Positions 10,339-49,979 of a stretch of DNA of 64,000 nucleotides are shown here, piece after piece. Positions within the stretch are counted from its first letter, which is position 1; each line of letters begins with the position of its first letter. Location of the stretch: contig NZ_LJPW01000144.1 in assembly GCF_001400735.1 (NCBI RefSeq), positions 1 to 64,000 of the forward strand, in the 5' to 3' direction. Position numbers and translations under genes: made by a program. The notes beneath the pieces are model-generated. The model was not told the origin of the DNA. It saw nothing but the letters and a program-made list of their open reading frames with translations, and ran no database searches. The stretch comes from Pseudomonas caricapapayae. GTDB lineage: Bacteria; Pseudomonadota; Gammaproteobacteria; Pseudomonadales; Pseudomonadaceae.

Positions 10339-11182
10339 ATGACCCAGACCACTTACACTCCACCGAAGGTATGGCAGCAGGACACACAGGCGGGTGGTAC
10401 GTTCGCCAGCATCAACCGGCCCGTCGCCGGTCCCACGCATGACAAGGTGCTGCCCGTCGGCAAGCACCCGCTGCAGCTTTACTCACTGGCCACCCCCAAC
10501 GGGGTGAAAGTCACGATCATGCTGGAAGAGCTGCTGGCGCTGGGGCACAGCGGGGCGGAATACGATGCCTGGCTGATCCGCATTTCCGAGGGCGAGCAGT
10601 TCTCCAGCGGTTTTGTCGATATCAATCCCAATTCCAAGATCCCCGCGCTGCTGGACCGAAGCCACGAGACACCTGTCCGGGTATTCGAGTCTGGTTCGAT
10701 CCTGCTGTACCTGGCGGAGAAGTTTTCCAGTTTCCTGCCCGCCGACCTGGCAGGCCGCACTGAAACGCTGAACTGGTTGTTCTGGCAGATGGGTGCTGCG
10801 CCTTATCTGGGCGGCGGGTTCGGGCACTTCTATGCCTATGCGCCGGAGAAACTCGAATAACCCCATCAACCGGTTCGCGATGGAGGCCAAGCGTCAACTC
10901 GATGTGCTGGACCGTCGCCTTGCAGAACACCGCTATCTGGCCGGCGACACCTACACGATTGCCGATATTGCCGTGTGGTCATGGTATGGCGCACTGGTGC
11001 GCAACAAGGTGTATTCGGCAGCCGAATTTCTCTCGGTACACGAATACCCGAACCTGATTCGCTGGACAGAAGAAATCGCCGCACGCCCTGCCGTTATCAA
11101 AGGCCAGAAGGTTAATCGCACCTGGGGCGAAGAGTCGGATCAGGTTCCGGAACGGCATGATGCGTCCGACCTGGATAAATAA
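10339..11182 (+). pseudogene. yghU: Glutathione S-transferase YghU, frameshifted
   Basis: The first 173 codons match the N-terminus of YghU-type glutathione transferases ('SINRPVAGPTHDK', 'LYSLATPNGVKV', 'NPNSKIPALLD', 'VFESGSILLYLAEKF'). They end at a premature TAA (10858-10860). The rest of the protein continues in another frame: 'PINRFAMEAKRQLDVLDR', 'YTIADIAVW', ending 'ERHDASDLDK'. Between GAA (10855) and ATC (10865) there are 7 bases (TAACCCC) instead of 6. Removing one A gives Tyr-Pro and restores the frame. Family members bind glutathione or its disulfide, with disulfide reductase activity. Real decay or a one-base sequence error are both possible. Confidence 0.85.
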
Positions 11183-11384: not shown

Positions 11385-12401
11385 ATGAGTACTCCCAGCG
11401 CGCCGCATACGTCTGTAACTGATCGCTTCGACGAAGTGCTCGCAATGATCAAGGGCGCTCGACAGCAAGCCGCCCAGGCGGTCAATACGCAGCTGATCGA
11501 GCTTTACTGGCAAGTAGGCGCTTACATCAGCCGCAAGATTGAAAACGCCGAGTGGGGTGACGCGGTGGTCAACCAGCTTGCTGAACACCTGGCCACAACC
11601 CAGCCAGGGCTACGCGGGTTTACGCGCAGCAACCTGTTTCGCATGCGTCAGTTCTATGAGATTTATCGCGCCGAAGAGAAAGTCGCACCACTGGCGCGAC
11701 AATTATCCTGGTCCCATAACCTGATCATTTTCAGCCAGAGCAAACGGCCCGAAGAGCGCGAGTTCTACTTGAAAATGGCGACTCAGGAAAGGTGGTCAAA
11801 ACGCGAGCTGGAACGCCAATTCAAAAACGCCCTGTTCGAACGCGTTGTCACCCAGCCCGCCAAAGCCTCGGCGATGCTCAAGGAAACCCGACCGGACGCA
11901 CTGGATGTGTTCCGTGATGCTTACATGGTGGAATTTCTGGAGCTGCCGTAGGGGCACGCAGAAGCGGATCTGCATGGCGGCTTGCTGCAACGTCTGAAGG
12001 ATTTTCTGATCGAACTGGGTCGCGACTTCTGCTTTGTCGGCTCAGAGTACGCGCTGCAGGTCGGCGGACAGGATTTTGCGCTGGATCTGCTGTTTTTCCA
12101 TCTTGGCCTCAACTGCCTTGTTGCCATTGAACTCAAGGTCGGCCGCTTTCAGCCGGAATACCTCGGCAAACTGGACTTCTATCTGGAAGCCCTGGACCGG
12201 AATGTACGCAAGCCCCATGAGAACCCCGCCATCGGCGTTTTATTCTGCGCCAGCAAAAACGATGAAGTGGTCGAGTACGCCCTGAACCGCTCGCTTTCAC
12301 CCGCATTGATTGCCGAATACCAGACCCGACTGCCGGACAGGCAGTTATTGCAAGCGAAACTGCATGAGTTCTACGCGAGCGCCGCCCTGAACGAACAGTG
12401 A
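11385..12401 (+). pseudogene. YhcG/DUF1016 PDDEXK nuclease, in-frame amber stop
   Basis: The 188 codons from 11385 encode the DUF1016 N-terminal domain ('LIELYWQVGAYISRKI', 'FTRSNLFRMRQFYE', 'LSWSHNLII'). TAG at 11949-11951 interrupts the gene after 'VEFLELP'. The same frame then continues 'GHAEADLHGGLLQRLK' and the PDDEXK nuclease core: 'DFALDLLFFH', then 'LVAIELKVG' (Asp and Glu-x-Lys), ending 'LHEFYASAALNEQ'. A single change of GAG to TAG would explain it. The family is associated with defence or recombination functions and is widely exchanged. Unless the stop is suppressed, the nuclease domain is lost. Confidence 0.85.
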
Positions 12402-15042: not shown

Positions 15043-16917
15043 ATGCCCACGACGTTCAAAGAGATTCCCCGCGAGCGCCCGGTCACGCCGCTGCTTGACC
15101 GAGCCGATACCCCGCACGGCCTGCGCCGTCTGGGCGAAGCCGAGCTGGAAACCCTGGCCGATGAACTGCGCCTGGAGCTGCTGTATTCCGTTGGCCAGAC
15201 CGGAGGGCATTTTGGTGCCGGCCTCGGGGTCATCGAGCTGACCATCGCGCTGCATTACGTTTTCGACACCCCGGACGACCGTCTGGTGTGGGACGTGGGT
15301 CATCAAGCCTATCCGCACAAGATCCTCACTGGCCGTCGCGCGCGCATGTCCACCCTGCGCCAGAAGGACGGAGTCGCTGCCTTTCCGCGGCGCAGCGAGA
15401 GCGAGTACGACACCTTTGGCGTAGGCCACTCCAGCACCTCGATCAGCGCCGCGCTGGGCATGGCGATTGCTTCGCGCCTGCAAGGCAGCGAGCGCAAGTC
15501 CATTGCCGTGATCGGCGACGGCGCACTGACTGCCGGCATGGCCTTCGAAGCGCTGAACCATGCGCCGGAAGTGGCGGCCAACATGCTGGTGATTCTCAAC
15601 GACAACGACATGTCGATCTCGCGCAATGTCGGCGGGCTGTCGAATTATCTGGCCAAGATTCTTTCCAGCCGCACCTACAGCAGCATGCGCGAAGGCAGCA
15701 AAAAAGTGCTGTCGCGCTTGCCGGGCGCATGGGAGATCGCACGCCGAACCGAAGAATATGCCAAAGGCATGCTGGTCCCCGGCACGCTCTTCGAAGAGCT
15801 GGGCTGGAACTACATCGGCCCTATCGACGGCCACGATCTGCCGACCCTGATCGCCACATTGCGCAACATGCGTGATCTGAAGGGCCCGCAGTTTCTGCAC
15901 GTCGTGACCAAGAAAGGTAAAGGTTTTGCGCCAGCCGAAGTCGATCCGATCGGTTATCACGCGATTACCAAGCTTGAGCCGCTGAATGCGCCTGTCGCCC
16001 AGAAGAAGATCAGCGCGCCGAAGTATTCCGGGGTGTTCGGTCAGTGGATCTGCGACATGGCCGAGGCTGACTCACGACTGGTGGGCATTACGCCGGCGAT
16101 GAAGGAAGGCTCGGACCTTGTGGCGTTCAGCGAGCGTTTCCCGCAGCGTTACTTTGATGTTGCCATTGCCGAACAACACGCCGTCACACTCGCAGCCGGC
16201 ATGGCGTGCGAAGGCAGCAAGCCCGTCGTGGCGATCTACTCGACCTTCCTGCAGCGCGGTTACGATCAACTGGTGCATGACGTTGCGGTACAGAACCTCG
16301 ATGTACTGTTTGCCATTGACCGCGCCGGGCTTGTGGGTGAAGACGGCCCGACTCACGCGGGCAGCTTCGACCTGTCCTACCTGCGCTGCATCCCCGGCAT
16401 GCTGGTCATGACGCCGAGCGACGAAAACGAACTGCGCAAGCTGCTCAGCACCGGCTACCTGCACACCGGACCTGCGGCAGTGCGCTACCCGCGCGGCACC
16501 GGCCCGAACGCAGTGATCGAGGCCAATCTTGACCCGGTGGAAATCGGCAAGGGCGTTGTGCGTCGGCAAGGTCAGGGCGTTGCGATACTGGTATTTGGCG
16601 TACAGCTGAGCGAGGCGCTGGTGGTGGCCGAGAAGCTGGATGCGACGGTAATCGACATGCGTTTCGTCAAGCCTCTGGACGAGGCTCTGGTAAGCGAGTT
16701 GCTGGTCACGTTGGAAGAAAACGCAGTGATGGGCGGTGCGGGTGCTGCAGTCAGCGAATTCCTGGCACGCGCCAATATCCTCAAGTCGGTATTGCACCTG
16801 GGCCTGCCGGATGTCTACGTCGAGCATGCCAAGCCTGCGCAGATGCTGGCCGAGTGCGGGCTGAATGCCGCAGGGATTGAAGCGGCGATCAATGAGCGGC
16901 TGGCGTTGATTGGCTGA
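15043..16917 (+). CDS. dxs: 1-deoxy-D-xylulose-5-phosphate synthase, internally shortened
   Basis: A 624-residue DXS, the first enzyme of the MEP isoprenoid pathway. The thiamine diphosphate motif is 'GDG' at 158-160 with 'NDND' at 186-189; His and Asp residues of the N-terminal domain and the '[13 protein letters not shown]' transketolase-like region are present. Near residue 548-556 the sequence reads '[15 protein letters not shown]', whereas relatives such as E. coli Dxs have about six more residues here ('EMAASHEAL' type). The loss falls in the helix before a core strand of the C-terminal domain and keeps the frame. The enzyme is normally essential in pseudomonads, so either the variant works or this is a sequence error. 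Confidence 0.93.
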
Positions 16918-46435: not shown

Positions 46436-46464
46436 TTTACAGCCTAAAAAGCGCTCCGTATAGT
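46436..46464 (+). promoter_or_regulatory. Sigma-70 promoter of first tRNA-Leu
   Basis: TTTACA (46436-46441) and TATAGT (46459-46464) are separated by 17 bases and followed by a GC-rich discriminator GCGCGCC, as expected for a stringently controlled stable-RNA promoter. Confidence 0.85.
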
Positions 46465-46498
46465 GCGCGCCATCGACAGGTTGATCCGTGTCGATACT

Positions 46499-46585
46499 GC
46501 CCAGATGGTGAAATTGGTAGACACGCCAGCTTCAGGTGCTGGTGACCGCAAGGTCGTGGAAGTTCGAGTCTTCTTCTGGGCACCA
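46499..46585 (+). tRNA. tRNA-Leu (CAG)
   Basis: An 87-base type II tRNA. Acceptor arms GCCCAGA and TCTGGGC pair, followed by A and an encoded CCA. The anticodon arm CCAGC-TTCAGGT-GCTGG gives anticodon CAG, and the long variable arm is the leucine type. It is identical to the copy at 46746. Confidence 0.97.
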
Positions 46586-46624
46586 ATTCAGGCAACAGAC
46601 TACAACAGTCTCAAGCCTCACAAG

Positions 46625-46645
46625 AACCCGCGAAAGCGGGTTTTT
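46625..46645 (+). terminator. Terminator of first tRNA-Leu
   Basis: AACCCGC-GAAA-GCGGGTT stem-loop followed by T residues, 40 bases after the tRNA. Confidence 0.85.
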
Positions 46646-46682
46646 GCATTTTCGGGTTTTGATTATTAAATCAAAACAGGGG

Positions 46683-46711
46683 TTTACAGCGTAAAACGAT
46701 CGCCGTATAGT
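46683..46711 (+). promoter_or_regulatory. Sigma-70 promoter of second tRNA-Leu
   Basis: TTTACA (46683-46688) and TATAGT (46706-46711) with a 17-base spacer and a GC-rich discriminator. The hexamers and spacing equal those of the first copy, but the spacer sequence differs. Confidence 0.85.
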
Positions 46712-46745
46712 GCGCCCCATCAACGGCGTACACGCTGCTGATGCT

Positions 46746-46832
46746 GCCCAGATGGTGAAATTGGTAGACACGCCAGCTTCAGGTGCTGGTGACCGCAAGG
46801 TCGTGGAAGTTCGAGTCTTCTTCTGGGCACCA
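46746..46832 (+). tRNA. tRNA-Leu (CAG), second copy
   Basis: Identical over all 87 bases to the copy at 46499-46585, with its own promoter and terminator. It is the 3'-most stable RNA gene before the accessory 938-aa gene. Confidence 0.97.
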
Positions 46833-46841
46833 ATTCAAAAA

Positions 46842-46922: not shown

Positions 46923-49739
46923 TTATGGTTTCATGCCGAAGCCATACAGGATGGCTGAGTCTGGGCTAACCATAATACTATTATCAAGCTCAGGGTTATC
47001 AGGGTTAAACAGCCTTCTATGCTCCTGAACCCCTGGCCTGGACCACTTGTCACGCGCCCAGACCGAGTGACTCCGTTTCTCCCCCGCAGGTGTGTCTGGA
47101 AAATCGACAAACAACTTTCCACCGGCTTCAAGACGGAGCCTGCGCCAGGTAGCCAGATTCACTATTAAAAGCCCTCTGTCGCGGGCAATTTTCTCACATT
47201 GTGAATAGGTACCGTAAGTCAAGTACTCCAGCGTGGTGATACCCTGAACAGTCACCGTCACAACGACAGTCTGCCCAGCGGAATCTCTCACCTGAACAAA
47301 TACCGATCCGTTCTTCCTGGCCATCAAAAGCCCTTTCCCATCGACGTCGACGACAGATGCATCTCCCGACTCAAAAGTATAAGGACCTGTGCCACCACTT
47401 ATAACCAGTAGCTTACTTGAACCAGGCGGCACCGTCGCAGTACTTCCTGGTTTCGGATATGCTGCAGTCAAGGAGACTTCTGATGACTCAACGCTCAATG
47501 CGTTAACTTTCGGTTTTATAACCACGTTCAGCACGGGAAAGTCTTCAGCATAGGTATCATCAAAGTCTCCATCGAGCGTAGCTTTTGCAAACACCCGTAA
47601 CGGGCTGCCCTCCGCCAGTTCATCGAACTCGGCACGATCGACAGTTATCTCCAGATCCTTCTGCGCCTCGACGTCAGTCAACCGATTGGCCGTCCAAACG
47701 TTAATCTCCAGGAAACTGCCATCCTTGGCAACACCCTCCAGACGCAACCACACTCGTTGATCCGCCGCAATGAACGGCCACTTCTTGAGCTTCACCACGA
47801 TATCGGCTTTTACCGCGACCAGATCCAGAATCCCTTCGGGCGCTTGCTCGATTACCGGTGCAGACAAATCGTCCAGACCAAGCTTTTCAATCTCGACAAC
47901 AGTGACTTCAGACTCTATAGGCGCGGCCAATCCTTTGCGCGTGACATTATAATAGACCCAGACCTCCGCACCCGTATTCGCGCCAATTGCCGAGGCCGGA
48001 ACATCGAACTCCAACACTTGGTTCACGCTGCTCACATTCTGCGTTGCAATATCCGGCGTTCCAGCTCCATACGTCCCGCTCCAGAAGAGTCGAACCGTAT
48101 CGCCAACAGCAATAGACGGGTAAGCCCGAATGACGACTTTTGCACCAGTTCGCGCGACCATAGGATCGAGCACCGAAGCCACAGTGGCCGGAACATCTGG
48201 AGCAGGAAGCAAAAGGGCAGCCAACTGAGGTCCTACCGAAAACGACGTTTCTTGAGACCTGAACTTCCGGAGTGTGCCATCCGCCCCCTGACGCTCGATG
48301 ACGTAATAAGCAGTGGCCTTCTTGTTGAGCGCAGTATTGACGGTCGCAGCAGGGATGTTAAATACCAGGTCACGATCGACATTGGCAGCATCAACGGCCT
48401 GAGGGACCGACACGTACGGGTCGCCCCCTTCGGCCAACTGCCAATACGCGGTAACACTGTCGCCCTCCTGAGTCTCTGTAAAAGGTACGGTAAGCGTTGT
48501 TCCGGCGCTGGCTAAAGACGCATCCATATTGCCATTCTTAACCCCTCCCACAATGGCGCCCTCCAACACTCTGGAATCAGCAGCTTCCCGCTCTTGCTGA
48601 TTACCGACAAAAAATTTGTATTCGGGAGAGTTAAAGCCAATGCTCCTGCCGTCCGGCAGGGTACGCTCGAGCCGGTAATAAACCGTGACGAACTTGCCTC
48701 GATAGGAGTTGATGGTGTCCTCGAGATACACGTCAATTAGCAGTTCTTTATCGACGTTCAGCTCAGTGACGGTCAGTGTCTCTTTAAACTTATTCTGTCG
48801 TGAAGAATCACTCCAGACCATGGTGACCTTGTCGTTGACCAGCGTCCCCTGAAAAGGTATACGTACATAGACATAATCAATAAATGTATCCGGGTCAAGG
48901 TACCCATCAACGCCCTTAATATAAGGCGCCAAGCCGGCAAGGCGCGCCCCCACATAGAGGCTGCTCTTGAGTGAGTTGTACCAGATGCCGTCTCTGTAAA
49001 CCTGATAGTAGATATCTACGGAGCCATTCAGCAACGGCCTGATATCCCCGTCGGTCCAGATAAATTTCAGGGGCCTATGAGCAAGATTGCCAGAACTGAC
49101 AGGGCGCTCTTCATCGATAACGTTAATAGCTTTCTGGTTGGCGTCGACACCCGCCTTGACCAGCCTGACTGCATCGCGATCTTTCATATCCGGGTAGTCA
49201 AGACTGACGGTTACATACTTGACGGTTCCTTTGGCACTAATCTTATTTATATCAATCGTATTATCTTTAGCATCAATCACTTCCGGAGCCGGCAGGTAAA
49301 GGCCGCGAACCTCGAAGGATAAAATACCCGATGTACGAACTTTCCCAGACGTCGGCGTGACGACATAATGAAGAGTTGCTGTTTGACCTGCAAGCTTCTT
49401 TAAATACGCTGACGGCACCACAAGAATACGGTTATCACCACCCGCCACATCCTTTACGTGGAAGCCCTGACTCCAACTGACCGACGAACCAGCGGGACCA
49501 TTGAAATGAAGCTCAACGTATTCACCTACCGCAAAATTCAGATAATTGATATTCAGAACCGACCACAATCCAACGCTGAGGCCTTGCCCTGCCAGGTAGG
49601 ACATATCTGATAACGACGGGGGTGATGATGGCTTGGCAGGATAGCCTAACTGAACATAATCAACGTTTTTGGCGGCGTCATACTTCTTGAACCCACCGAC
49701 AATCACGGGCGCATAGAGAAACTCCCATATAGCAGCCAT
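46923..49739 (-). CDS. Large repetitive Ig-like-fold protein, unknown function
   Basis: A 938-residue protein. ATG 49739 is chosen because GGATGG lies upstream and the conserved reading begins there. At least five diverged units of about 110-130 residues recur, each with a pattern like 'GDxVxxxW', 'xFxVPAxxI/V' and 'xVxVYYxVxR', which suggests stacked beta-sandwich domains. A bacterial Ig-like (BIg2-type) segment follows ('SGDASVVDVDGKGLLMARKNG'), then a distinct C-terminal domain with 'QCEKIARDRGLLIVN'. There is no signal peptide, membrane segment or LPXTG motif. It is more AT-rich than its neighbours and lies beside two tRNA genes, suggesting acquisition. Surface display or injection is speculation. 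Confidence 0.7.
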   Translation of the reverse strand: MAAIWEFLYAPVIVGGFKKYDAAKNVDYVQLGYPAKPSSPPSLSDMSYLAGQGLSVGLWSVLNINYLNFAVGEYVELHFNGPAGSSVSWSQGFHVKDVAGGDNRILVVPSAYLKKLAGQTATLHYVVTPTSGKVRTSGILSFEVRGLYLPAPEVIDAKDNTIDINKISAKGTVKYVTVSLDYPDMKDRDAVRLVKAGVDANQKAINVIDEERPVSSGNLAHRPLKFIWTDGDIRPLLNGSVDIYYQVYRDGIWYNSLKSSLYVGARLAGLAPYIKGVDGYLDPDTFIDYVYVRIPFQGTLVNDKVTMVWSDSSRQNKFKETLTVTELNVDKELLIDVYLEDTINSYRGKFVTVYYRLERTLPDGRSIGFNSPEYKFFVGNQQEREAADSRVLEGAIVGGVKNGNMDASLASAGTTLTVPFTETQEGDSVTAYWQLAEGGDPYVSVPQAVDAANVDRDLVFNIPAATVNTALNKKATAYYVIERQGADGTLRKFRSQETSFSVGPQLAALLLPAPDVPATVASVLDPMVARTGAKVVIRAYPSIAVGDTVRLFWSGTYGAGTPDIATQNVSSVNQVLEFDVPASAIGANTGAEVWVYYNVTRKGLAAPIESEVTVVEIEKLGLDDLSAPVIEQAPEGILDLVAVKADIVVKLKKWPFIAADQRVWLRLEGVAKDGSFLEINVWTANRLTDVEAQKDLEITVDRAEFDELAEGSPLRVFAKATLDGDFDDTYAEDFPVLNVVIKPKVNALSVESSEVSLTAAYPKPGSTATVPPGSSKLLVISGGTGPYTFESGDASVVDVDGKGLLMARKNGSVFVQVRDSAGQTVVVTVTVQGITTLEYLTYGTYSQCEKIARDRGLLIVNLATWRRLRLEAGGKLFVDFPDTPAGEKRSHSVWARDKWSRPGVQEHRRLFNPDNPELDNSIMVSPDSAILYGFGMKP

Positions 49740-49759
49740 ATTAATTCCATCCTTAGAAA

Positions 49760-49979
49760 TAAGTTTAAATATCAAACTGTGTTTTTTCAGCACAGCGCAG
49801 AAAGCTTATTCATCCTCATAAGCTTTACTCACGGTAGTCGACCTGTTGGAACTGCATAACTATCAGACGTAACAGGTAGACAGTCGATAAAAAATAGGCC
49901 ACAAGGTCTTAGACACACTGAAACTGACGCCGTTGAATCAATGCACGAAGACGCCTTTCATCAGTAAGTTTAAATATCA
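49760..49979. repeat. 15-bp direct repeat pair in the gap upstream of the 938-aa gene
   Basis: TAAGTTTAAATATCA occurs at 49760-49774 and 49965-49979, 205 bases apart and in the same orientation, with partial similarity continuing beyond. The gap 49740-50040 is AT-rich and carries no gene that I can support. Confidence 0.6.

Follow-up and report, generated by a model that had tools for sequence, protein, structure and literature searches.

An apparently private 18-base in-frame deletion in the domain III region of the only dxs gene found in a Pseudomonas caricapapayae draft genome

Dxs (DXPS) feeds isoprenoids, thiamin and pyridoxal phosphate and is studied as a drug target; PMC13082120 describes its role as essential in Gram-negative pathogens. 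The P. aeruginosa enzyme (PDB 8a29, 8a45, 8a4d and 8a5k) is of the same family and fold as the protein considered here and 82% identical to it in structural alignment, with the difference that it carries the full segment RELAGSHE where the present protein has only SE. According to PMC10504544, an engineered truncated P. aeruginosa enzyme (paDXPS) showed comparable activity. Its likeness to the present case lies in the shortening: in paDXPS, a poorly conserved flexible loop of domain I (residues 206–245) was replaced by six glycines, whereas the present deletion shortens a conserved domain III helix. Natural length variation of domain III is also on record for M. tuberculosis DXPS, where PMC9068908 places insertions (498–502 and 523–528) at variable, solvent-exposed sites, in contrast to the conserved residues lost here. 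Among the open-licence PMC papers listed by literature searches, none mentions a deletion at this Dxs site in its title or the opening of its abstract.

The stretch of DNA analysed (hereafter the window) comprises 64,000 nucleotides, namely positions 1 to 64,000 of contig NZ_LJPW01000144.1 in P. caricapapayae assembly GCF_001400735.1. Its dxs gene (15043–16917, + strand) is open throughout, with neither a stop nor a frameshift, and encodes 624 aa. The product matched TIGR00204 with 861.2 bits (cut-off 465.95), residues 22–620 corresponding to profile positions 5–615 of 616, and the Pfam domains DXP_synthase_N, Transket_pyr and Transketolase_C with 401.8, 151.4 and 83.7 bits, all above the gathering score.

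Comparison with relatives revealed that this gene has undergone an 18-base in-frame deletion, corresponding to exactly six residues. The nearest relatives, L005 (from genome G192) and L006 (from G094), encode Dxs proteins with 98% identity to that of the window within a gene neighbourhood that is the same over most of the window, and both keep the six residues as part of a shared 20-residue segment. At this site L005 reads AGC GAA GCT GCC GCC AAC CAC GAG TTG, against AGC GAG TTG in the window. The junction lies at 16694–16698 (+ strand; comparison with L005–L007), its exact point being ambiguous over CGA at 16695–16697: removal of 18 bases from the corresponding piece of L006 yields the window's junction in four equivalent placements, reflecting a 3-base CGA repeat at the ends. 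A six-residue gap in the query was also present between residues 551 and 554 in each of the four PDB alignments listed (8a29, P. aeruginosa; 2o1s, E. coli; 8a8y, K. pneumoniae; 7bzx, chloroplast Dxs). A sequence-only reading had described a Dxs lacking about six residues of its C-terminal domain, at 16684–16713, a range falling within the codons of a 15-residue peptide encoded at 16678–16722, and had called the deletion in frame and the remainder of the gene intact. The alignments bear out this description. The motif 'xxAxSHE' that it gave for the missing segment has seven letters, while six residues are lost, and the break point is ambiguous by three bases.

The extent to which such a gap is unusual was assessed in an alignment of the window's Dxs with 109 fetched loci (29 from same-genus genomes and 80 named records). 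The stretch corresponding to window residues 536–575 had 46 residues in 108 of the 109 relatives and 45 in the remaining one (L051, Marinomonas pontica), compared with 40 in the window. Segments of 46 residues taken along L005 held their commonest length in 99–108 of 109 relatives where they covered the site, and in just 42–62 of 109 where they started at 271–321. A naturally variable loop, which the sequence-only reading had named as grounds for dropping its claim, can therefore be ruled out among the relatives examined. Two of the lost columns are conserved in residue as well as in length, one being Ala in 101 of 109 relatives and another His in 102 (Tyr in five more); the other four vary in residue. 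Within the window's contig, the six residues of dxs were the largest single in-frame gap when 162 sister ORFs, some of which are probably not genes, were compared with 224 kb of sequence; next came three five-residue changes, two of them deletions and one an insertion.

The genus was then surveyed by searching 398 genomes, sampled evenly from a larger group, for the 40-residue stretch as it stands in the window; matches were sorted, and best E-values were tabulated for every genome. A match was obtained in 394 genomes, the window's own included. The latter scored 71.1 bits over 120 bases, whereas the next best reached 58.6 bits over 138 bases (46 codons). Since no gap would be penalised in a genome with the same deletion, none of the 393 other matching genomes is likely to carry it, and the short form was found in the window's genome only. 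As judged from the sequences compared, the deletion is private to this genome. A single genome of the species entered the comparison, which, together with the strong constraint on the protein otherwise, would be compatible with a short form fixed species-wide and kept for some advantage; this reading nevertheless seems very improbable to us, given its confinement to one genome and the lack of any compensating change at conserved positions. In a further set of 95 genomes drawn as relatives, 92 of which gave a match, the best non-self match was 85% in DNA, while G192 was 87.5–95% alike in DNA across the window.

Apart from the missing segment, the rest of dxs looks to be under full constraint. 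The dN/dS values of the window's gene against L005, L006 and L007 were 0.025, 0.026 and 0.040, within the span seen among those three relatives themselves (0.021–0.049), and just four residues were peculiar to the window at positions where the three agree. The protein matched all columns invariant in 40 same-genus rows (29 from genus genomes and 11 named Pseudomonas), as well as all columns at least 93% conserved in the 109 relatives. Columns invariant over 42 Dxs sequences include H56, E377, Y399, R427, D434 and H438, among which we take the catalytic residues to lie, in part from work on M. tuberculosis DXPS (PMC9068908). A pseudogene was rejected on the grounds of the open frame, the normal dN/dS and the retention of conserved residues.

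Such an unaltered remainder implies either that the deletion is young or that it is absent from the organism itself. In the second case the strain would have a full-length dxs, and the 18 bases would have been lost in making the 193-contig draft. The absence of altered selection on the rest of the gene and of the short form from every other genome searched would fit such a consensus or assembly error. The same can be said of the interruption of two further genes within 6 kb of dxs, which is compatible with real decay or with weak consensus. Two of the 394 matching genomes (G052 and G359) even have dxs spread over several frames, probably through sequencing errors; those cases, however, are frame shifts, unlike the clean 18-base loss seen here. 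No long repeat is present at the deletion site, the frame is undisturbed on either side of the junction, and a clean loss of 18 bases with a 3-base end repeat is, to our knowledge, atypical of the errors made by common sequencing platforms. We therefore regard an error as unlikely, while still deserving serious weight, and put the odds in favour of a real deletion at roughly three to one. Were it an error, the case would serve as a small warning on draft genomes.

The consequences of a real deletion depend on whether another enzyme could take over. The window's genome (193 contigs) is rated 100% complete and 0.87% contaminated, and the proposed search for a second dxs found none in it. Three further places matched in the Dxs search, one on contig C152 and two on C127; considered as a second dxs, they were rejected because they belong to two transketolase-like gene pairs, each of them split (L002, 1474–3341, − strand; L003, 573–2529, + strand). 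The C-terminal halves of these pairs gave TIGR00204 scores of 187.6 and 138.2 bits, far below the cut-off of 465.95. The genome has dxr, and HMG-CoA reductase, the single mevalonate-pathway enzyme sought, was not found in it. With one Dxs, dxr present and no such reductase found, Dxs is the sole route into isoprenoids that was seen, in agreement with what had been supposed from the sequence alone. dxs is in general an essential gene, as it presumably is in this strain. As neither another Dxs nor the mevalonate-pathway reductase was found, the shortened enzyme would have to suffice for growth.

Structural consequences were explored with AlphaFold2 models, both of them monomers built from 42-row alignments. 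In the full-length relative L035 (Pseudomonas moorei), the model has a helix at residues 548–557 followed by a strand at 560–568. In the window's protein, one helix turn remains (residues 547–550, encoded at 16681–16692, + strand), followed by a short loop and the strand, which is still predicted despite the deletion (residues 555–561, encoded at 16705–16725, + strand). The deletion is thus predicted to cut the ten-residue domain III helix to four residues, and mean model confidence over residues 551–560 was 84, compared with 96 in the full-length relative. In the model, the overall fold of the window's Dxs is kept: superposition on P. aeruginosa DXPS (8a29) gave Z = 46.8 and an rmsd of 1.5 over 547 residues. 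The L035 model had a slightly higher Z (47.8) and an rmsd of 18.0 against 8a29, its domains being placed differently, and rmsd values of 17–18 against bacterial DXPS crystal structures; for this reason, the two models were compared for local secondary structure and confidence only. AlphaFold2 is poor at judging stability. Overall, catalysis should remain possible, and folding or the dimer may be weakened.

A more severe outcome would be a real but crippling deletion, with the strain living as a slow-growing or conditional hypomorph, or with the deletion having arisen in the cultured isolate. It would be in keeping with the loss of a conserved helix, Ala and His included, and with the extensive dimer contacts attributed to DXPS domain III in PMC9068908. 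We nevertheless consider it improbable, because the catalytic domains are untouched and because, with no other Dxs found, activity must exceed zero if the gene is essential.

The explanation we prefer, with a probability of roughly 0.55, is a real, recent and private 18-base deletion after which the enzyme still works, perhaps less well. On this view, an ordinary Pseudomonas dxs, present in one copy, would have undergone one recent in-frame loss, probably by strand slippage at replication involving two CGA triplets that lie 18 bases apart. Domains I and II of the product would retain their catalytic and cofactor residues, and domain III would lose about six of the ten predicted helix residues ahead of the sheet strand, so that a one-turn helix and a loop would now connect to that strand. 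We infer that the deletion is present in the living strain and that the shortened Dxs still works well enough for growth. Conservation of the lost Ala and His columns suggests that the loss should cost something, likely in the form of lower stability or a weaker dimer. A fully active natural Dxs lacking most of the domain III helix, in which a near-constant segment and its His would be dispensable for catalysis and dimer formation, appears doubtful to us. If real and active, the enzyme would amount to a natural deletion experiment on domain III, a matter left unanswered by full-length crystal structures; confirmation of both would make it of modest structural interest.

Several other features of the window and of the survey were recorded. 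A gene for a YghU-like glutathione-dependent disulfide-bond oxidoreductase (10339–11182, + strand) has a frameshift near 10.86 kb, while in G192 and G094 it forms one 299-residue frame. Likewise, a DUF1016/YhcG-type gene with a PDDEXK nuclease domain (11385–12401, + strand) is interrupted by an in-frame stop at about 11.95 kb and is one 338-residue frame in G192 and G094. Other stops and frame splits were present in the comparison of the sister ORFs with the contig. The dxs loci spread over several reading frames (L150 from G052 and L151 from G359) both come from two-contig genomes, and G284 (86% complete) had a weak dxs score in the genus survey. For an ORF of 956 residues (46923–49793, − strand), the best match in the G192 stretch was only 60% identical and the G094 stretch had no match, although the flanks of the ORF are more than 90% alike in DNA; short repeats at 46456–46837 aligned out of order.
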